Source of the DNA: a virus
IMG/VR virus record: IMGVR_UViG_3300032271_000480
Location: 1 to 20,396 of that record
Strand: one strand, 5' to 3'
Length of the DNA stretch: 20,396 nt
Shown: positions 61 through 8,482 of the stretch, piece by piece
Layout: each line of letters starts with the position of its first letter
Position numbering within the stretch: position 1 is the stretch's first letter
The notes under the pieces: generated by a model
Database searches by the model: none
The model's input: the letters and a program-made list of their open reading frames with translations, nothing else
What the model was told of the DNA's origin: nothing
Position numbers and translations under genes: made by a program

Positions 61-537
61 ATGCCGCGACCAGGACCACGGCCGATGCCGACCGAGCTGA
101 AGATTCACCGCGGCAACCGCTCAAAGGAGAACCTAAAGGCGAAGCAGGCCTCGGAGCCGAAGCCGCCGAAGGCCTCGCTCGATCCGCCCGCGATCCTCGA
201 GGGAGCCGCGCTCGAGATGTGGACCAGGCGGGCGCAGCAGCTCGCCGGGATGGGGCTCTTCACCCAAGCCGACCGCGAGACGCTCGAGCGCTACTGTCTT
301 ACCTACGAGCTCTTCTATGCGGCCTACCGATCGGTGAAGTCCGACGGCCTGGCGGCCGCCACCGAAGGCGGAGGCATGAAGGGGAACCCAGTCGTCGCCG
401 CGATGCGCGGGTATCACGCGGACCTCCTCCGCATCGAACAGGAGTTCGGCCTCACCCCGAGCTCGAGGTCTACGCTCACGGTGGAGCATGGGAAAGAAGT
501 CGACCCGCTCGACGCGTTCCTCCGCGCGTCGCAGTAG
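61..537 (+). CDS. terS: Phage terminase small subunit, P27 family
   Basis: 158 aa. This is the DNA-recognition subunit of the packaging motor: it binds the concatemeric phage genome and hands it to the large subunit. The sequence has the P27 layout: a basic Pro-rich start (PRPGPRPMPTELKIHRGN), an acidic/Pro stretch (residues 35-45), a helical core with the LTQADRETLERYC-like segment (here FTQADRETLERYC), and a C-terminal tail with the GLTPSSRS-type motif seen in this family. ATG 61 is preceded by AAGGG at 49-53 at good spacing. The gene overlaps the large terminase by 50 bases, the usual arrangement, which supports the assignment. Known: P27-type subunits pair with Terminase_1-type large subunits. 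The packaging mode (cos or pac) cannot be read here. Confidence 0.93.
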   Translation: MPRPGPRPMPTELKIHRGNRSKENLKAKQASEPKPPKASLDPPAILEGAALEMWTRRAQQLAGMGLFTQADRETLERYCLTYELFYAAYRSVKSDGLAAATEGGGMKGNPVVAAMRGYHADLLRIEQEFGLTPSSRSTLTVEHGKEVDPLDAFLRASQ

Positions 538-2104
538 CAAGCAGCGGCCCGAAGCCGTCGACGGATTCGTCTACGATCAGGCGCGGCCCGATCGCGTGAT
601 CGAGTTCGTCGAGACGTTCTGCCAGATGTCGAAGGGCGAATGGGCCGGGCGGCCAATGAAGCTGCTCGACTGGCAGAAGCACGACATCCTCGAGCCGCTC
701 TTCGGCTGGGTCGACTCCGAAGGCCGCCGCCGGTATCGGACCGCCGCGATCTTCACGCCGAAGAAGCAAGGCAAGTCGACCATGATGTCGGCGCTCTCGC
801 TCTGGTTTCTCCTGGGCGAACGCGAGCCGGGGGCGGAGGTAATCTCCGCGGCATGCGACCGAGCCCAGGCGGCGATCATCGCCCGCGAGGCGGCCGCGAT
901 GGTTCGCGCGTCGCCTCATCTCTCGAAGGTGCTCGAGGTAATCGACTCGCGCAATACGATCATTCACAAGGCGAGTAACTCGCGTTACACCGTGATCAGC
1001 GCCGACTCCTTCCGGGCCGAAGGTATCAACGCGTCGGCGGTCCTCCTGGACGAGGCACATGCCCAGCGCGACACGCGGCTCTACGATGCGCTCCGATACG
1101 CTGGCGCGTCTCGCCGATCGCCGATCGTGATCTCGATCTCGACCGCTGGATACGATCGCTCGCCCGGGGCTCTATGGTGGCAACTTTGGCAATACGCGGA
1201 GCGCGTCCAGGCGGACCCGTCTCACGACCCGACCTTCTTCGGGAAGATCTACAAAGCCGACGACGACCCGGCCAAATGGTTCGAAGAGGAACAATGGTTC
1301 AAAGCAAACCCGAGCCTCGGCCACACCGTGACGCTCGACTCCTTCCGGGCCGACGCGGTCCAGGCCCAGAAGAACCCGGCGGCCCTGAACCAATGGGCGA
1401 GGTATCGGATCAACGTCCCGACGGAGTCCGATCAGCGCTGGTTCACGGCCGAGGCCTGGGCGGCATGTGGCGAAGAGCTCCACCCGCTCGACGGCCGCCC
1501 CTGTTGGATGGGGCTCGACCTCGCGAGTAACCGGGACTTTACGGCGGCGGTCTGCTGGTTCCGCGACGGAGAGTCCTGGGACATCGACTGTCTCTTCTGG
1601 TTCCCCGAGGACGCGGTCGCGGAACGCGAGCAGCGCGATCGAATCCCGCTCTCGCAGTGGATCCGCGAGGGCTGGGTTCGGACGACGCCCGGAGTCCGGC
1701 TCGATCACGACGCGGTCGCGGCCGACGTTCTCGCGTACGCGCAGAAGCACGAGATCCGCCAGGTCGCGGCCGACCCGTGGAACCTCGGCGCGATCGCCTC
1801 GCGACTTCAATCGGGGGGCCTGCAAGTTGTAGGAATAGGCCAGAACACCGGTTCTCTCTCCGCTCCGTCGAAGCTCCTGGAATCGCTCGTTTACGAGAAG
1901 CGTTTGCGGCACGGAGGGAACCCGGTGCTCGCCTGGATGGCGAGTAACGTCCAACTGTTCACCGACAGCAACGGGAACATAAAACCCGACAAGGGCCGCT
2001 CGACGGAAAAGATCGATGGAATCGTCGCGGCAATCTGCGGACTGGCGGTCGCGTCTACGGCGCGCGATGAGCTGGGGACCGACTGGTCGATCACAATCAT
2101 CTAG
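488..2104 (+). CDS. terL: Phage terminase large subunit (ATPase and nuclease)
   Basis: 538 aa. This is the motor protein that hydrolyses ATP to pump DNA into the prohead through the portal and cuts the genome. The N-terminal ATPase domain shows Walker A PKKQGKST (residues 91-98) and Walker B VLLDEAH (185-191, D188/E189). The C-terminal RNase H-like nuclease domain shows candidate metal ligands D344 (in GLDLA), D429 (in AADPW) and D510 (in KIDGIVA). Length and motif order match the Terminase_1 family of HK97-like phages. ATG 488 follows GGTGGAG at 479-485 and lies inside the small subunit gene, suggesting translational coupling. The basic first 20 residues (KKSTRSTRSSARR) are a loose extension. 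All key residues are present, so the enzyme should be active. Confidence 0.97.
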   Translation: MGKKSTRSTRSSARRSSKQRPEAVDGFVYDQARPDRVIEFVETFCQMSKGEWAGRPMKLLDWQKHDILEPLFGWVDSEGRRRYRTAAIFTPKKQGKSTMMSALSLWFLLGEREPGAEVISAACDRAQAAIIAREAAAMVRASPHLSKVLEVIDSRNTIIHKASNSRYTVISADSFRAEGINASAVLLDEAHAQRDTRLYDALRYAGASRRSPIVISISTAGYDRSPGALWWQLWQYAERVQADPSHDPTFFGKIYKADDDPAKWFEEEQWFKANPSLGHTVTLDSFRADAVQAQKNPAALNQWARYRINVPTESDQRWFTAEAWAACGEELHPLDGRPCWMGLDLASNRDFTAAVCWFRDGESWDIDCLFWFPEDAVAEREQRDRIPLSQWIREGWVRTTPGVRLDHDAVAADVLAYAQKHEIRQVAADPWNLGAIASRLQSGGLQVVGIGQNTGSLSAPSKLLESLVYEKRLRHGGNPVLAWMASNVQLFTDSNGNIKPDKGRSTEKIDGIVAAICGLAVASTARDELGTDWSITII

Positions 2105-3416
2105 CGACGAGCCTCCCTTCACGCCAGACGAGGCTTTTACGATCCGGGCGCTCGACGCCCTGGCTCCCCAATACTGGGGCATCGAGCCGATGGATCGGCT
2201 CACCGCCCAGACCGCGATCCGGGTGACGGCCATCCTCGCGTGTCTGCGGTTTCTCGCTCAGAGCATCGCCTGCATGCCGCTCGAGCTGCTGCACGTCGGC
2301 GACCGGCGGAAGCGCCCGGCGATCGATCTCCCCTGCTACCCCGTGCTCACCCGCCAGCCGAACGGATGGCAGTCCACCTATTCCTGGCTCGAGCAGATGG
2401 TTTTCCATACGGGGCTCTACGGGAACGGCTATTCGAAGATCGTCCCCGGCGCTCGCGGTTTCTGCTCGCAGCTCGTGCCGCTCCATCCGAGCCGCGTCCT
2501 CGTCAAGCGGATGAGCGACGACACGCTCGAGTACACGTTTACAGACGCGTTCGGCCGGACGGAGTCTCTCTCGCAGGACCAGGTTGTTCACTTCCGCTGG
2601 CTCTCGGATAACGGCTACATCGGGCAGATGCCCGCGGACTTGTGCGGGACGAGCGTCTCGCTCGCGCGGAAGCTCGATGTCGCCGCGTCGGCCTACTGGG
2701 ACAATTCAGCCCGGCCCGACACGGTCCTTGAGACGACCGAGCGGATTCCCGAGGAAGGCATGCAAGCGCTTCGCCAGGGATGGCGGGACGCGTACGGCGG
2801 AGCCCGCAACCGCGGGAAGGTCGCGATCCTCCCGAAGAGCGTCACGGCCCGGACCCTCGACGGCAATTCGATGGAGTCCTCGCAGTACATGCAGCAGCGC
2901 TCCGCGATCGTCTCGGAGATCGCCCGGATCTTCGGCGTCCCCGCGACGCTCATCGGCCATGAGGGCGCGATGAAGTGGAGCACGGTCGAGCAAGAACACC
3001 TTGGCGCGCAAGTGTGGTGCCTGCTCCCGTGGCAGCATCGGATCGAGTCGGCGATCGATGTCTCGATCTTGAGCGCGTACGGGAACGATGTTTACTGCAA
3101 GCTCGACAACCGCGGCCTAATGCGGGCCGACTCCGCGGGCCGCGCGCAGCTCTACCAGGCGCTCTGGTCGATGGGCGCGATCACGCCGAACGAGATTCGC
3201 GACCTCGAGGATCTCCCTCTCCTGGACAACCCGGCCGCTGACGAAACCTACGTGCAGCTCGGTTTCTCGACGCTCTCGGCCGCCGCCGCCCAGGCCCCGC
3301 AACAAGCACCGGCGCCGGTCGAGCCGGTCGCTCCGGCTCCCGATCAATCCAAGACGCTCCCGGCCGACGCGGCCGGACCATTCATCTCCGGAGGCGACGA
3401 TGTCATCCTCGGCTGA
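2016..3416 (+). CDS. Phage portal protein, HK97 family
   Basis: 466 aa from ATG 2016, or 449 aa from the alternative ATG 2067. The dodecameric portal forms the DNA channel at one head vertex, docks the terminase and nucleates head assembly. Family hallmarks seen: AIRVTAILACLRFLAQSIA (residues 67-85), HTGLYGNGYSKI (131-142), the LVPLHPSRV segment, DQVVHFRW, and IARIFGVPATLIG followed by STVEQEHL. The C-terminus is Ala/Pro-rich. The long overlap with terL (89 bases) makes the first start uncertain; GGAAAA at 2005-2010 favours it, and 2067 lacks a clear ribosome site. Cys residues at several positions are unremarkable. Placement between terL and prohead protease is canonical. Confidence 0.95.
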   Translation: MESSRQSADWRSRLRRAMSWGPTGRSQSSSDEPPFTPDEAFTIRALDALAPQYWGIEPMDRLTAQTAIRVTAILACLRFLAQSIACMPLELLHVGDRRKRPAIDLPCYPVLTRQPNGWQSTYSWLEQMVFHTGLYGNGYSKIVPGARGFCSQLVPLHPSRVLVKRMSDDTLEYTFTDAFGRTESLSQDQVVHFRWLSDNGYIGQMPADLCGTSVSLARKLDVAASAYWDNSARPDTVLETTERIPEEGMQALRQGWRDAYGGARNRGKVAILPKSVTARTLDGNSMESSQYMQQRSAIVSEIARIFGVPATLIGHEGAMKWSTVEQEHLGAQVWCLLPWQHRIESAIDVSILSAYGNDVYCKLDNRGLMRADSAGRAQLYQALWSMGAITPNEIRDLEDLPLLDNPAADETYVQLGFSTLSAAAAQAPQQAPAPVEPVAPAPDQSKTLPADAAGPFISGGDDVILG

Positions 3417-4434
3417 ACGTAGATTCCTCACCCTCGGCGAGATGCCGACGAAGCTCCGCGTCTCCCGCCGCAAGGCCGGGGGGATGAAGTTCTCCGGCTA
3501 CGCGGCCCGATACTCGTCCGCCTCGAGCGACCTCGGAGGCTTCCGCGAGATCCTCGCGCCGGGTGCTTTCGACAAGGTTCTCTCAAAGCGGTCGAAGTCC
3601 GATGTCATCCTCGCGTACAACCACAATCCCGACCACCTTCTCGCGCGGACGAGCTCCGGGACGCTGAAGCTCACGAGCGACGAGAAGGGCCTCCGGTTCT
3701 CGGCCGACCCGCCCGAGACCCAGCTCGCGAAAGACATCGGCGAGCTGATCCGTCGCGGCGACCTCACGGGCGCGAGTTTCGCGTTCACGGTCGCGCCGAA
3801 GAATGAAGCCTGGTCGACGGACGAGCGCGGCAACTCCGTCCGGACGATCCGAGAAGTTTCCGAGCTGTTCGACGTGTCGATCGTCACGACCCCGGCCTAC
3901 CCGGCGACCTCGATCGCGATGCGGTCGCTCCAGGCCTGGAAGCAGGCCCGGGCGCTCATGGGCCAGCCGATGGCTCCGGCCGCCGAGGCCGAAGCCGAGG
4001 ACCAGGAGCAGGAGGTCGGCGAGCAGCTCGTCGGGCCGGGCCTCACGATCTCGATCGACTTCGACGACACCTTCTCCGCGGCCCCTGGTCTCTGGCTCTC
4101 GTTCATCGAGGAGGCCTGCGAGGCCGGGAATACAATCATCATGACCAGCCGCCGGGAAGACACTCCCGAGAACCAGGCCCAGATCATGTCGGCCCTGGGC
4201 GACGACGCCGACCTCGCGGCCGTGATCCTCGCCGGGCCGGACTCGACGAAGCGGGACGCGGCGACCGCCGCCGGGTTCACGGTCGACATCTGGATCGACG
4301 ACGACCCGTCGACGGTCGACGGCCCGATCGAGCAGCAGCGGGCGGCATCGATCCGCATCGGCTCCCGCCTGGCGGCCGCTCGTGCGATCGCCGCCCACAA
4401 TCTCCGGAGGATCCGCGATCGTGTCTCCGGCTAA
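3400..4434 (+). CDS. HK97-type prohead protease fused to a HAD-phosphatase-like domain
   Basis: 344 aa, against roughly 180-230 for typical family members. Residues 25-175 form the S78/U35 prohead protease, which cleaves the capsid delta domain during maturation. The candidate triad is H75 (in YNHNPDH), S126 (in GASFAF) and E152 or E155 (in REVSELFDVSIVTTPAYPAT). An acidic Ala/Glu/Gln linker spans about 193-210. Residues 215-305 look like a HAD-superfamily fold: motif I DFDDT (D220, D222, T224), motif II IIMTSR (T249/S250), motif III K284 in STKRDA, motif IV WIDDDP (D300-D302). The HAD catalytic residues look complete. I recall similar HAD proteins as stand-alone phage genes, so fusion here is notable. 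ATG 3400 overlaps the portal end and follows GGAGG (3390-3394). M187 or M191 could serve as an internal start for a free HAD product. The HAD substrate is unknown. Confidence 0.9.
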   Translation: MSSSAERRFLTLGEMPTKLRVSRRKAGGMKFSGYAARYSSASSDLGGFREILAPGAFDKVLSKRSKSDVILAYNHNPDHLLARTSSGTLKLTSDEKGLRFSADPPETQLAKDIGELIRRGDLTGASFAFTVAPKNEAWSTDERGNSVRTIREVSELFDVSIVTTPAYPATSIAMRSLQAWKQARALMGQPMAPAAEAEAEDQEQEVGEQLVGPGLTISIDFDDTFSAAPGLWLSFIEEACEAGNTIIMTSRREDTPENQAQIMSALGDDADLAAVILAGPDSTKRDAATAAGFTVDIWIDDDPSTVDGPIEQQRAASIRIGSRLAAARAIAAHNLRRIRDRVSG

Positions 4435-4588
4435 ATGCAAACACTGTGGCGAGCGGATGCGCGTCGACTCCTCGAGGAGATGCGGCGAGCTCCAGCTCCA
4501 GTACCTCGAGTGCGTCCGTTGCGCGGCCCGGCGGAGCCGGGTCGTCGACCGCTCGACCGTGTGGCCGAAACCGAGGAGCAAGTCATGA
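4421..4588 (+). CDS. Small zinc-ribbon protein
   Basis: 55 aa from GTG 4421, chosen because GGAGG lies just upstream (4407-4411) and the frame then opens straight into a metal-binding motif. Residues show CKHC near the N-terminus and CVRC about 22 residues later, with a basic, Leu/Tyr-containing stretch between (RVDSSRRCGELQLQYLEC). This is the layout of a treble-clef or zinc-ribbon domain and recalls Ogr/Delta-type late activators and NrdR-like ribbons. A nucleic-acid-binding role is therefore plausible but unproven. The C-terminus is basic. It overlaps the end of the prohead protease gene by 14 bases and ends in an ATGA overlap with the next gene. Confidence 0.7.
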   Translation: MSPAKCKHCGERMRVDSSRRCGELQLQYLECVRCAARRSRVVDRSTVWPKPRSKS

Positions 4589-4959
4589 GCGTATCGGCCG
4601 CCGTCATATCCGCCCGAGATCTGCCGACGCTCGAGGCAAAAGTCCGCGCGTTCGTCGCGGTCGCCATCGGTGACGCGAGGGACGGCCTCACGATCGCCGA
4701 GCTCTCGGAGCTGACGATCGCGCTCCTCCGGCTCGTGATGGACGCTCTCGACAACATCCCCGCCGACGGCGAGCAGAAGAAGGCCTGGGCGCTCCAGGCC
4801 GTCGCCGACTTGTTCGACGCGGTGGCGGACTCGTGCGTCCCGCTCCTCGCTCGCCCGATCTGGTTCCTCCTTCGGCCGATGGTCCGCCAGCTCGTCCTAG
4901 CGGCCGCCTCCGGCGCAATCGAGCAACTTCTCCCCCTGGTACGGATGGCAACCCGATGA
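4585..4959 (+). CDS. Hypothetical protein, mostly helical, accessory cluster
   Basis: 124 aa from ATG 4585, preceded by GAGGAG at 4573-4578 and sharing ATGA with the zinc-ribbon stop. A longer frame opening at 4435 would overlap the zinc-ribbon gene and is Arg/Pro-rich, so it is rejected. The protein looks all-alpha: Leu/Ala heptads through TIAELSELTIALLRLVMDAL, then a more hydrophobic C-terminal half (PLLARPIWFLLRPMVRQLVL). It may lie on or in a membrane, but no clean transmembrane helix is obvious. No family recognised. It is translationally coupled to a membrane protein gene downstream. Confidence 0.75.
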   Translation: MSVSAAVISARDLPTLEAKVRAFVAVAIGDARDGLTIAELSELTIALLRLVMDALDNIPADGEQKKAWALQAVADLFDAVADSCVPLLARPIWFLLRPMVRQLVLAAASGAIEQLLPLVRMATR

Positions 4960-5219
4960 CAATCGCTCTCCTCTTCGCGGCGGCCGCCGCCGCCGTCTAC
5001 CTCTGGCCGACGATGCCGAAGGCCCCGGTCACGGTCAAGCCGCTCGAGGTCGCTCCGCCGCTCGTGACGTTCACGAAGGCCCCGACCTATCGGTCGGCGA
5101 TCGAGTCGCTCGCGTACGTCCGGACGCGGCTCATCAATACCGAGAACCTCACCGAAGCGGCGAAGTCCGCGGTCGACACGCTCACGCTCGCGCTCGTCGC
5201 CGGGTCCGACAAGGAGTAA
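4956..5219 (+). CDS. Small membrane-anchored protein
   Basis: 87 aa from ATG 4956, which overlaps the preceding stop as ATGA. An N-terminal hydrophobic segment (residues 2-17, IALLFAAAAAAVYLW) would act as a signal anchor. It is followed by a Pro/Val-rich linker (PKAPVTVKPLEVAPP) and a soluble helical tail of about 45 residues, probably on the outer side of the membrane. A single N-terminal helix with a short soluble domain resembles spanins and pinholin-like proteins in outline only; no motif proves that. No family recognised. An in-frame upstream extension is possible but has the Arg/Pro look of non-coding frames. Confidence 0.75.
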   Translation: MTIALLFAAAAAAVYLWPTMPKAPVTVKPLEVAPPLVTFTKAPTYRSAIESLAYVRTRLINTENLTEAAKSAVDTLTLALVAGSDKE

Positions 5220-5222
5220 CCC

Positions 5223-5675
5223 ATGCGCCGCGATCTCATCGCCGCCGCCCTGGTCGTCGCCTCCGTCTCGGCCTTGGCCATCTCCGCCCCGGCCCCGGCA
5301 CCGACCCCGGCTCCGCCCCATCCGGGGGCGCTTGAGCTGCGAGGGAAGTTCGTCGGCCCCGACGCGGCCTCCGACGCGGCGACGTTCTCGGCCTTGTGCG
5401 ACGAGCTCGCCGCGGTGATCGAGTTCGACTCCATGCAACCGACGCCCCGCCTGAAGACCGGCGCGAGCATCGAGGATCTCCGCGTCGCCGCCCGAGAGGC
5501 CCGGATGAAGGGGGTCTCGCTCGGAGCCCGTCAGCCGCGCGTGCGAGACGCGGTGAAGGAGTTCCTCGACGAGAAGGCCGGGGTCTCCGGCGGTCCCCTT
5601 ACACCGTCCCAGCGGTCCGCCTGGGCGGCAGCGTTCCGCGAGATCGGGAGGGCCGCCGCCGATGCCGCGCGATGA
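5223..5675 (+). CDS. Exported or membrane-anchored hypothetical protein
   Basis: 150 aa. It starts with a classic signal-peptide layout: MRRD, a hydrophobic core LIAAALVVASVSALAIS, then an Ala/Pro spacer (APAPAPTPAPPHP) that may be a flexible linker or follow a signal peptidase site. The mature part begins near ALELRGKFVGPDAASDAATF and is a compact helical domain with conserved-looking blocks (TPRLKTG, RVAAREARMKG, GARQPRVRDAV). I recall similar proteins from planctomycete phage regions but no function. It begins three bases after the previous stop and overlaps the papain-like peptidase by 14 bases, so the two are probably co-translated. Confidence 0.8.
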   Translation: MRRDLIAAALVVASVSALAISAPAPAPTPAPPHPGALELRGKFVGPDAASDAATFSALCDELAAVIEFDSMQPTPRLKTGASIEDLRVAAREARMKGVSLGARQPRVRDAVKEFLDEKAGVSGGPLTPSQRSAWAAAFREIGRAAADAAR

Positions 5676-6783
5676 GTTCGACGCCAGGCTGAACCGGGTC
5701 GCCTTCGTGGCGGCCGCCACGGTCTTCGGTTTCTGGTTCTGGTACTTCGGCCTGCACTACATCGACACGGCCTTCGTCCAGGCCGCGAGGAACTACGGCT
5801 ACACCCCCGACCCGGCCGGGACGAAGGAGTTCCTCGCCGAGCTCGACCAGCCGCTCTTTCGCAACGCTGGCGCCGAGGTAATTGCAAACGCGAAGGGCCG
5901 CGACGCGTACCTCTATCGCATCGCCGACAAGGCGCACCAAGCGGTTTACGGAACGCCCTACGGCCCGTGGGATCAAGGCCAGATCGGGACGTGTGTTTCG
6001 TTCGGCTGGGGCATGGGGTCCTACGTCGGCCAGTGCGTCGAGTGGTCGACCGGCGAGCTCCCCGCTCCGCCGAAGATCGTCGCTACCGAACCGATCTACG
6101 CGGGAAGCCGGACGGCGGGCCGGATGCCTCCTGTCTCCTTCGCTGGATTCAGTGACGGGAGTTTCGGAGCGGCCGCCGCGCGGTGGGTATCCGGCCAGTG
6201 CAAAGATAAGACGGTCGGCGGGATCCTGTTTCGCCAGAAGTACGGCGACGGCGAGCTCGACCTCACCACCTATTCCGTCCCGAAGTCGAAACAATGGGGC
6301 GCGTACGGATGCCCGCGTCCGCTGGCGCTCGAGGCGAATAAACACCTCGCGCGGGCGGTCGCCTTGTGCGAGACATGGGAAGGCCTCACGGCCGCGCTCG
6401 AAAGCGGCTACTGCGTCCCGGTCTGCTCGAACATCGGTTTCGCGAGCGGCGACCGCGACGCGGACGGATTCCTTCGAAGCGCCGGGAGCTGGGGTCACTG
6501 TATGGTCGCCATCTCGGTGAAGTACGCGGCGAACAGCGGCAAGAACCAGGAGCCGCCGATGAGGAACCCGCGCGACGGAGTGCTGATCATGAATAGCTGG
6601 GGACCGTCCTGGGTGAAGGGCGGCAAGCATCCGGCCGATCAGCCCGACGGGAGTTTCTGGATCACGCGGGCGGACGCCGAGAAAATTCTTCGACAGTCCG
6701 ACTCGTTCGTGATCGGTGGGGTCGGAGGCTTCGCGTATCGTGATATTCACAATGGAAACTGGATGGCAACCAATGAACAGTAG
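5662..6783 (+). CDS. Membrane-anchored papain-like (C1A) cysteine peptidase
   Basis: 373 aa. An N-terminal transmembrane segment (about residues 13-32, FVAAATVFGFWFWYFG) anchors a C1-type peptidase domain. QGQIGTCVSF (105-114) aligns without gaps to the papain QGSCGSCWAF block, giving oxyanion-hole Q105 and nucleophile C111. SWGHCMVAI supplies H279, and LIMNSWGPSW supplies N311 followed by the invariant SWG. The spacing Cys-His-Asn (168 and 32 residues) suits the family with an insert before His. Extra Cys residues (125, 180, 217, 236, 251, 255, 280) might form disulfides, in keeping with an extracytoplasmic location. No propeptide is obvious. GGGAGG precedes ATG 5662. Papain-like proteases are uncommon in phage structural regions. 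Possible jobs are envelope or wall protein cleavage at lysis, exclusion, or virion protein processing; none is proven. Confidence 0.88.
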   Translation: MPRDEFDARLNRVAFVAAATVFGFWFWYFGLHYIDTAFVQAARNYGYTPDPAGTKEFLAELDQPLFRNAGAEVIANAKGRDAYLYRIADKAHQAVYGTPYGPWDQGQIGTCVSFGWGMGSYVGQCVEWSTGELPAPPKIVATEPIYAGSRTAGRMPPVSFAGFSDGSFGAAAARWVSGQCKDKTVGGILFRQKYGDGELDLTTYSVPKSKQWGAYGCPRPLALEANKHLARAVALCETWEGLTAALESGYCVPVCSNIGFASGDRDADGFLRSAGSWGHCMVAISVKYAANSGKNQEPPMRNPRDGVLIMNSWGPSWVKGGKHPADQPDGSFWITRADAEKILRQSDSFVIGGVGGFAYRDIHNGNWMATNEQ

Positions 6784-7018
6784 AACGCTCGCAATCGCGG
6801 CCGTGTGCCTTTGCCTAGGGATGTACTTCGCCCGCCCGGCCCCGGAGCCGCCGCGTCCCGATCGGCCCGTCCTGTCGGCGATCGCCCGCCTGGCGAAGTT
6901 GGGGCTCTGGATCATGCTCGTCGGCGAGTCGGCCCCGGCCGAGAAGCAGACGCTCGCGTATCACGCTCACGTAGACGCGGACGGACATCGGATCCTCGAG
7001 CACGGGGAAGGATGGTAA
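6773..7018 (+). CDS. Small membrane protein, accessory cluster
   Basis: 81 aa from ATG 6773, inside the end of the peptidase gene, with GGATGG at 6761-6766 as ribosome site. An N-terminal hydrophobic helix (residues 5-18, TLAIAAVCLCLGMYFA) is followed by a Pro-rich turn and a second amphipathic or hydrophobic segment (VLSAIARLAKLGLWIMLVGE), then a hydrophilic tail ending in HGEGW. Two hydrophobic stretches in so short a protein would fit a class II holin, but this is a guess from topology only. No family recognised. The GTG at 6716 gives a longer frame but lies deep in the peptidase gene. Confidence 0.7.
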   Translation: MNSRTLAIAAVCLCLGMYFARPAPEPPRPDRPVLSAIARLAKLGLWIMLVGESAPAEKQTLAYHAHVDADGHRILEHGEGW

Positions 7019-7020
7019 TC

Positions 7021-7158
7021 ATGTGGGGCTGGATCCTCGGACTCCTCGCGTCCCTCTCGGCCGACCCGGCGGCCATCGACCGCGAGACTCCTCGAGCTGC
7101 GGCGGCGGTCGCCTACGCGTACGCGGCGCTCGCCGAGGATCCCGCGCAGGATCGGTAG
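7021..7158 (+). CDS. Very small exported or membrane peptide
   Basis: 45 aa from ATG 7021, two bases after the previous stop, with AAGGA at 7008-7012 as ribosome site. The first 16 residues (MWGWILGLLASLSADP) look like a short signal or anchor, followed by an Ala-rich helix and an acidic end. A start at ATG 7012 would add three residues but has poorer spacing. It closes the accessory cluster; a real intergenic gap follows. No function can be given. Confidence 0.6.
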   Translation: MWGWILGLLASLSADPAAIDRETPRAAAAVAYAYAALAEDPAQDR

Positions 7159-7192: not shown

Positions 7193-7264
7193 ATTCAATC
7201 GCCCGGCCCATTCGTAGAAAGTGTGACGCGTAATCGTTCACGCAACCCCGAAGGGAATTCTCTC

Positions 7265-8482
7265 ATGTCGACCAGCCGTCGCCGCCTGCTCCAGGACGAA
7301 GCCGCCAAGCTCGCCAATCAGATCGAAGAGCTCCGCGCTCTGGCTCCGAAGGACGACGCCGAAGCGGCGACGATCGCCGAGCGGCTCGACGCCGCCTCGA
7401 AGCGTAGCGAGCAGATCCTCCCCGAGCTCGACCGCGAGAACGCGCTCGACGCGCGGCTGAAGGCTCTCCGCTCGACCGTCACCGACGCCTACGAGCACCG
7501 GGACGCCCTGGTCCGCGGCGAGGCCCCGACGGTCGAGACCGCCGAGGCGGCCGCCGTCCGCGGCTTCGGCAGTCGGAAGGAAGCCCATCAAGTCGGCCTC
7601 GCTCTCCGGAGCCTGTTCCGTGGCGAGACCCGCGCGATGGGCGAGTCCTCGACCGCCTACGACGGCAAGGGCTCGGAGTACGTTGTCGTCCAGCTCTACA
7701 ACGCGGTGATCAACATCCTGAAATATCAGTCGGTCGCGTTCCAGGTCGCCAACGTCGTCGAGACGAACAGCAACCGGATCACCTTCCCGAAGGTCGGCGA
7801 GATCACTGCGACCCCGATCAGCGAGAACACCGACACGACCGACGTCGATGTCTCGACGAGCGGCGCGACCTGCAACGTCCTCGACTGGCGGTCGAGCGTC
7901 GCGGTGTCGAATTCCCTCATCGAGGACTCCCCGGTCGACGTTGCCGGTCTCGTGGCGAATCGTCTCGCCTACGGCTACGCGAAGAGCATCGACAAGGCCT
8001 GGCTCCAGGGCTACTCCTCGGGCGGGATCACGATCGGCGGCCTGTTCGCGGCTCTCGATTCCGGTAACGTCGTGACGGTCGCGAAGACCGCCGCGACGAC
8101 CGTCGGAAACTTCGCCGATGTCGTGGGCAAGATCGACCCGTACGCGATCAACCCGAGCTGGGTCGTCGGTACGCTCGGTTGGGCCGAGGTGATGAAGGTC
8201 TCCGCGACGCTTCTGAACGCGAACATCGTCGACGGAACCGCGGCGAGCCTCTGGGGCGCTCCGGTTCGCAAGGCATACAACATGCCCGCGAACGTTTACG
8301 CGATGTACGGCGACTTCGGATTCTCGTCGCAGATCGCAGTGAAGCCGAACGGCCTCCAGATCACGGCCGCCCGCGAGCTGCTGATCAAGAAGAACGCGAC
8401 CCTGTTCGTGGGTATCCAGCGGTTCGGCATCCTGAACAGCTCGCCGGAGTTCGCCGCCGCCCTGAACAAGGCCACGGTCTAA
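7265..8482 (+). CDS. Major capsid protein, HK97 fold, with N-terminal delta-like scaffold region
   Basis: 405 aa. It builds the icosahedral shell. Residues 1-75 are charged coiled-coil helices (KLANQIEELRAL and ARLKALRSTV heptads) like the HK97 delta domain, which acts as a scaffold and is removed by the prohead protease; cleavage is expected around residues 100-135, before the shell domain. The shell part begins near SSTAYDGKGSEYVVVQLYNAVI and contains typical blocks: ILKYQSVAFQVANVVET, ITFPKV, IDKAWLQGYSSGG, and the C-terminal LIKKNATLFVGIQRFG. ATG 7265 is chosen over GTG 7223 because AAGGGAA (7252-7258) sits upstream and the extra 14 residues look non-coding. A spacer with palindromes lies upstream and a terminator downstream, so it may be separately transcribed at high level. 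Confidence 0.95.
   Translation: MSTSRRRLLQDEAAKLANQIEELRALAPKDDAEAATIAERLDAASKRSEQILPELDRENALDARLKALRSTVTDAYEHRDALVRGEAPTVETAEAAAVRGFGSRKEAHQVGLALRSLFRGETRAMGESSTAYDGKGSEYVVVQLYNAVINILKYQSVAFQVANVVETNSNRITFPKVGEITATPISENTDTTDVDVSTSGATCNVLDWRSSVAVSNSLIEDSPVDVAGLVANRLAYGYAKSIDKAWLQGYSSGGITIGGLFAALDSGNVVTVAKTAATTVGNFADVVGKIDPYAINPSWVVGTLGWAEVMKVSATLLNANIVDGTAASLWGAPVRKAYNMPANVYAMYGDFGFSSQIAVKPNGLQITAARELLIKKNATLFVGIQRFGILNSSPEFAAALNKATV

Follow-up and report, generated by a model that had tools for sequence, protein, structure and literature searches.

Enzymes fused to portal or MuF proteins are already known; a prohead protease as the carrier would be new. According to the passages of PMC12749128 cited here, Prohead 1 contains about 60 protease and 12 portal copies in HK97 and about 90 protease copies in D3, and purified D3 Prohead 2 contains cleaved capsid protein only. 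DarA of phage P1 is an internal head protein that is cut by the prohead protease and can be ejected with the DNA as a counter-defence (PMC12810830, passages cited here). The window analysed here (the whole of virus record IMGVR_UViG_3300032271_000480, 20,396 bases) includes a gene at 3400..4434 (+) whose product combines a prohead protease with a C-terminal HAD phosphatase-like domain. In related phages, which with this one belong to a large set of uncultured phages, the same domain is borne by the portal protein. No published description of a HAD-protease or HAD-portal fusion turned up in literature searches.

Two domains in one reading frame

The features of the gene are listed below. Residue numbers refer to its product. 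pLDDT, predicted local distance difference test; ORF, open reading frame; Z, score of structural similarity.

3390..3394, + strand: GGAGG, likely ribosome-binding site of the protease-HAD gene (read from the sequence)
3400..4434, + strand: prohead protease-HAD fusion gene, 344 residues (Pfam and phrog matches; architecture repeated in 71 ORFs)
3457..3957, + strand: S78 (HK97-type) prohead protease domain, residues 20-186 (PF04586; fold match to T4 gp21)
3622..3624, + strand: H75, candidate catalytic His (invariant in 39/39)
3775..3777, + strand: S126, candidate catalytic Ser (invariant in 39/39)
3871..3873, + strand: D158, invariant acid, a better candidate for the third catalytic residue than E152/E155 (conservation; putative role)
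3958..4038, + strand: variable linker, residues 187-213, Ala/Glu/Gln-rich in the window (gappy in relatives; pLDDT about 50 in mid-linker)
4039..4317, + strand: cap-less HAD-like domain, residues 214-306 (phrog_4256/4919; predicted fold)
4057..4071, + strand: HAD motif I, D220-x-D222-x-T224 (conservation)
4147..4149, + strand: HAD motif II, S250 (S or T in 74/74 cluster representatives)
4249..4251, + strand: HAD motif III, K284 (conservation)
4297..4302, + strand: HAD motif IV, D300-D301 (conservation)
4360..4431, + strand: Ala/Arg-rich C-terminal helix that follows the domain in protease-HAD proteins (modelled as helix 321-343; tails of relatives)

The ORF is open over 344 codons. Its 5' end overlaps the portal stop, and its start lies 5 bases downstream of the GGAGG. 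Residues 20-180 match PF04586 (Peptidase S78) at 1.6e-43 (149.1 bits; cut-off 21). The NCBIfam HK97 protease model TIGR01543 gives 104.8 bits, above its cut-off of 59, and phrog_80 matches the protease part at 1.2e-53. H75, S126 and D158 are unchanged in the 39 full-length fused representatives described below; E50 is a likewise invariant acid nearby. A preliminary description of this DNA had proposed a triad of H75, S126 and E152 or E155. The His and the Ser stand; E152 and E155 fall outside the invariant or nearly invariant columns of the 39-relative alignment and were rejected as the acid. The full-chain model (39 relatives) has a mean pLDDT of 83.6, with about 50 in the linker. Its first part matches the T4 capsid protease gp21 (Z 11.4, 144 residues, 3.1 Å), and herpesvirus proteases match the protease part with Z 5.7-6.5; its second part matches HAD-type phosphatases. 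The domain profile, the His/Ser pair and the herpes/T4-type fold place the gene among the Peptidase S78 prohead proteases.

The second domain matches phrog_4256 (residues 208-330, 6.3e-15) and phrog_4919 (residues 216-307, 5.3e-13), both labelled 'unknown function'. D220, D222, T224, R251, R252, K284, D300 and D301 are invariant in the 39 representatives. The HAD motifs proposed earlier are thus largely upheld (D220/D222/T224, K284 and D300-D301); motif II is S250 and not T249, and D302 is unconserved. Modelled alone (104 residues, 68 rows), the HAD part reaches a pLDDT of 93.0 and shows a Rossmann-like core without cap insert. HAD phosphatases are its top solved structure matches: the T4 Pnkp 3'-phosphatase comes first (Z 9.7, 99 residues, 3.1 Å, 15% identity) and the class B acid phosphatase AphA lower (Z 8.0). 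Matches below Z 8 possibly reflect just a common arrangement of the chain, and fold likeness shows no function. T4 Pnkp is unmatched by phmmer against PDB sequences up to E 1, the likeness being one of fold alone. Judged from the model, residues 214-306 almost certainly adopt a real HAD fold. PADLOC assigns the domain to no defence family.

Two further contigs encode the whole fusion, with 87-88% identity. When viral contigs were scanned with a HAD profile, 531 relatives were obtained, of which the best 80 were kept, and the window and loci L003 and L004 were added (L, locus or contig of the collection). In 71 of these 83 HAD ORFs a protease is held in the same frame. The 71 ORFs form 41 clusters at 95% identity, from which the 39 full-length representatives were aligned. 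The single-frame architecture is also found in a contig from a metagenome-assembled genome (MAG), L101; the other contigs come from many metagenomes. The two-domain architecture, which had been read in one gene and suggested as something to look for in other phages, is therefore established by the S78 profile, the HAD motifs, the predicted fold and the 71 similar ORFs. A frameshift or chimeric assembly joining two genes would find a precedent of sorts in MAG contig L102, where the HAD is an ORF directly after the protease; the recurrence of one frame across many metagenomes and 41 clusters refutes this explanation, whose probability is negligible. The internal start at M187 or M191 that had been put forward is rejected: no Shine-Dalgarno-like site lies at the usual spacing, and these Met residues are absent in many relatives.

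The Ala/Glu/Gln composition of the linker, described earlier as a feature of the protein, holds for the window and its close kin, to which it is restricted. The stretch between residues 184 and 215 has 32 residues in the window against 9-13 in most relatives. In a comparison with the fusion of L003 (L003:3433-4455), the protease part of the window gene (3400-4434) is 99% identical and the HAD 84%. Such unequal identities point to recombination where the two domains meet.

Protease or portal as carrier

HAD ORFs without protease are mostly portal genes with the HAD at or near the C-terminus, directly upstream of a HAD-less protease gene. Two further scans were made, one with portal-borne HADs (best 80 of 493 kept) and one with the protease only (best 80 of 597 kept); no prevalence is inferred from the scans. 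In the loci examined, the HAD ORFs number 71 of protease-HAD type, 81 of portal-HAD type and 33 others (63, 72 and 29 distinct sequences, respectively); L001, L005, L018, L098, L099 and L100, which repeat others or the window, were omitted here. HAD stretches shorter than 75 residues were removed before clustering, and 185 stretches were kept. D220, D222, T224, K284, D300 and D301 are kept in 27/27 protease-borne and 23/23 portal-borne HADs (90% clusters).

The carrier was counted in loci where portal and protease both reach their stop. Among the 126 HAD-bearing loci so defined, the HAD is on the protease only in 63, on the portal only in 62, on a separate next gene in 1 (L102) and on both in 0. 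For the 105 loci distinct by sequence the numbers are 53 (protease), 51 (portal) and 1 (next gene), and for the 58 clusters at 90% they are 27, 30 and 1. Distinct counts are corrected for duplicate contigs (L113/L027, L128/L087, L131/L088, L171/L082, L173/L086). Loci picked for having a HAD are silent on prevalence, yet a second copy would have shown. The distribution suggests that a phage may use either head protein as the carrier into the particle. The order portal-protease-capsid is conserved.

The protease-only scan gave 14 protease-HAD loci, 1 portal-HAD locus and 65 loci without a nearby HAD; 12 of the 14 are on contigs already collected, and 5 of the 65 have no portal in view. The two domains have separate histories in some pairs of loci: L090 and L092 have HADs 100% identical and proteases 59% identical, and L042 and L048 have HADs 61% and proteases 88% identical. 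In these sequences, HAD and protease domains are observed to recombine, the C-terminal domain being exchangeable. A quick tree of the proteases (83 rows, of which 9 were set aside for an unclear HAD state) implies 7 or more changes in the presence of the HAD; only 3, for the group lacking it, are forced by well-supported branches. Near-copies were removed from the trees (90% and 85%). On the HAD tree (74 rows, 96 columns; short alignment, long branches flagged), 54 head-module HADs form one group with the portal-borne ones inside it (Shimodaira-Hasegawa-like approximate likelihood ratio test, SH-aLRT, 96). A single clade of protease-borne HADs is unrejected by the approximately unbiased test (p 0.532), and repeated transfers are therefore not claimed.

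HAD relatives also occur outside these two carriers. In none of the 376 records from cultured phages does a tblastn match to the HAD reach 80% query coverage, and the seven relatives that were read are separate small genes. Those of KNP2, phiM6 and CHOED adjoin genes for MazG, ribonucleotide reductase, dNMP kinase or thymidine kinase. The protease of Lactobacillus phage LJ (L269:109-1065) has a DxD HAD-like domain at residues 1 to about 100, followed by S78 at 124-289. In its close relatives the match begins no earlier than residue 77-105. In a search for such N-terminal fusions, one of 53 loci, LJ's own record, matched residues 1-318; in the remaining 52 the match starts at residue 77 or beyond. 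These sequences suggest more than one origin of the HAD-protease pairing, with the order reversed in LJ. In the structure comparison with viral proteins, the HAD model matches several proteins of uncultured phages named XkdF or 'prohead protease'. These proteins may be further HAD-protease fusions in another protease family, going by the model.

Effector domains accompany the HAD in the portal lineage. L094 encodes portal, HAD and ADPrib_exo_Tox on one polypeptide (2.8e-11). L082 and L086 encode Ntox46-HAD (1.1e-9, scanned in L082, L082:3167-4291). A Zeta-toxin ORF follows the portal-HAD gene in L142 (L142:3905-5053, 3.2e-28), and an ART-PolyVal ORF lies beside it in L151 (L151:5169-6158, 2.6e-14). 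HEXXH motifs were seen by eye downstream of the HAD in L079/L081 and L181/L187. The tail of a HAD-less protease (L191:3955-5502) is 66% identical over 127 columns, including a Gly-rich stretch, to that of a portal-HAD protein (L126:2399-4726). By sequence, this tail is a second domain observed on both carriers. By eye, another protease (L261:4264-5727) has a 249-residue tail that is ClpP-like.

A set of 19,494 six-frame ORFs contains 21 copies of a cysteine motif, C-x-T-G-x-G-G-x(3,6)-[SN]-x(0,1)-C (mean in whole-ORF shuffles: 0.02). Wherever context is visible, the motif lies in the head module, on the + strand. Accessory domains follow it, whether on portals, on a single protease (L191) or on free ORFs situated between the portal and protease genes, and a role as packaging or processing tag is possible. 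The pattern scan places it in the following loci, and the portal, protease and capsid proteins of the window contain no copy.

L079, L081, L082, L086, L094, L118, L126, L127, L137, L142, L151, L157, L171, L173, L181, L187, L191: cysteine-motif loci (pattern scan)

The head genes of the window run terminase, portal, protease, capsid (phrog and Pfam annotation).

488..2104, + strand: terminase large subunit (phrog_9, 6.2e-151)
2016..3416, + strand: portal protein, without HAD in the window phage (phrog_12, 2e-81)
7223..8482, + strand: major capsid protein with a long charged, delta-like N-terminal part of its own (PF05065 5e-25, residues 157-404; N-terminus read from the sequence)

Several small ORFs (4435-7158, +) lie between the protease and capsid genes, an unusual gap for the HK97-type order; they gave no convincing match among the families scanned. 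Between the same two genes is a 373-residue ORF (5662-6783, +) with a hydrophobic N-terminal stretch, which looks papain-like by eye (QGQIGTCVSF, GHCMVAI, NSWGPSWV). Its counterpart in L003 is 71% identical. Pfam and PDB sequence searches give no support to the papain-like look. PF14550 is absent from the window. As to the host, all three MAG contigs with a head-module HAD (3/3) are assigned to Planctomycetota. This is a hint at the host; a prophage search in the phylum of the Planctomycetaceae MAG matched 1 of 392 sampled genomes, the centre genome itself, so the contigs may be binned free phage.

Proposed function and alternatives

The small cap-less HAD phosphatase-like domain at the C-terminus of the protease would be cargo. 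The carrier, protease or portal, would take the phosphatase into the head during assembly. In the head, or after release with the DNA, phosphate would be removed from a nucleic-acid end or a nucleotide. The phage genome would thereby be protected or repaired, or a host defence signal blunted. The type of substrate is suggested by the fold, by the open cap-less site and by the neighbours of the stand-alone kin. Catalytic activity of the domain is probable. Its presence inside the prohead is very likely. Its persistence in the virion falls just short of an even chance, and its action in the host cell is slightly less likely again. Taken as a whole, the proposal that fusion to a head protein brings the phosphatase into the prohead as cargo stands evenly balanced between right and wrong. 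The preliminary description had likewise supposed that fusion brings a phosphatase-like domain into the prohead; this is the best reading, strengthened by the same HAD on the portals of relatives. A bolder version is rather unlikely: the C-termini of protease and portal would be interchangeable cargo ports, with one loaded carrier per phage; the HAD and at least one other small domain would be swapped between them; and the HAD, ejected with the DNA, would act immediately in the host cell, its target being either DNA 3'-ends or a defence signal that carries a phosphate.

Several points weigh against the cargo proposal. PF04586 is the sole Pfam match of the protein up to E 1, no HAD model of Pfam or NCBIfam matches it (NCBIfam lines for the domain, at E 0.02-0.03, are far below cut-offs), and a phmmer search of PDB sequences names no HAD family. 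The name 'HAD' therefore rests on the motifs and the predicted fold. Structure matches of Z 8-10, for their part, leave the substrate unfixed. Since HK97-type proteases leave the head, as in D3 Prohead 2 (PMC12749128, in the passages cited), the HAD of a protease carrier may be gone by the time the virion is complete; the protease as carrier speaks somewhat against retention and ejection. The HAD is, on the sequences compared, dispensable, being absent from 65 of the 80 close protease loci. The 0/126 count for both carriers comes from HAD-selected, often related loci. Toxin neighbours were seen solely in the portal-HAD lineage, the protease-HAD lineage not having been scanned systematically.

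The loss of protease material from D3 Prohead 2 (PMC12749128, same passages) would also fit a HAD that acts during assembly and afterwards disappears or falls idle. Its substrate, in or near the prohead, would be nucleotides, a head protein bearing phosphate, or the DNA ends at the packaging motor. Each carrier is a component of the prohead, and the kept portal-protease-capsid order agrees with such a role. Close relatives manage without the HAD, however, and the effector company in the portal lineage better suits delivery; action in assembly is unlikely, to a slightly greater degree than the bolder version above. The HAD is taken as an accessory function and not as a part of the assembly because the capsid protein has a scaffold-like N-terminus and close relatives have no HAD.

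A folded spacer or a protein-binding, scaffold-like module would need no catalysis. The C-termini of HK97-type proteases often bear extra parts, and the helix after the HAD is conserved. Catalytic residues are nevertheless invariant in 39/39 representatives and kept in both carrier classes, the domain changes carrier between protease and portal, and the capsid protein already has a charged N-terminal part suited to scaffolding. The earlier suggestion of a mere folded scaffold is for these reasons, and for the HAD-less close relatives, disfavoured; such a module is improbable. It is a little less probable still that the HAD is a free nucleotide-metabolism enzyme that was fused to a head gene by accident and works in the cytosol during infection. 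The gene neighbours of the stand-alone kin in KNP2, phiM6 and CHOED would suit this origin. Against it, the two carriers are both head proteins, chance is not expected to keep to portal and protease, and head-borne HADs are grouped apart from stand-alone ones (SH-aLRT 96, on a short alignment).

On the bolder version, the prohead protease would be a delivery vehicle besides a maturation enzyme. A prohead protease serving as carrier, when sister phages have this enzyme on their portal and none was seen with both, would give phages a natural way of filling their heads with enzymes that is new. The cargo proposal supplies a function guess for phrog_4256/4919 and ready-made, testable cargo arrangements. 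It also makes testable the survival in the virion of material fused to a maturation protease.

Comparison with known systems

HK97-type prohead proteases (PF04586; TIGR01543) resemble the window protein in profile, in the His/Ser pair, in the predicted T4 gp21-like fold and in the slot between portal and capsid genes. The window protein differs by its added C-terminal HAD, and its gene by the small ORFs that separate it from the capsid gene. The T4 Pnkp 3'-phosphatase is alike in fold, as the best solved match, and in motifs I-IV; the window HAD differs in having no kinase domain, in its fusion to head proteins and in sequence (15% identity). phrog_4256 and phrog_4919 belong to the same sequence family as the window HAD. 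In cultured phages, the relatives that were read stand alone as genes, unlike the fused HAD of the window.

MuF polymorphic toxins are alike as head-associated proteins with exchangeable C-terminal effector domains (PMC5576092, passages cited here). The 344-residue protein differs from them: it has no MuF domain (Pfam, to E 1), the carrier is a protease or a portal, and the HAD bears no toxin signature. In polyvalent proteins, portal or MuF domains are fused to PBECR, 2H or inorganic pyrophosphatase, and the products are thought to be packaged and injected; the passages of that account cited here name neither HAD nor prohead-protease fusions (PMC5512222). Multi-effector polypeptides of putatively polyvalent type, which would need to be packaged, are encoded by relatives and not by the window gene (portal-HAD-ART in L094, Ntox46-HAD in L082). 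By analogy, the best reading of the window protein is a cargo HAD akin to the effector domains of MuF toxins and polyvalent proteins, on a new carrier.

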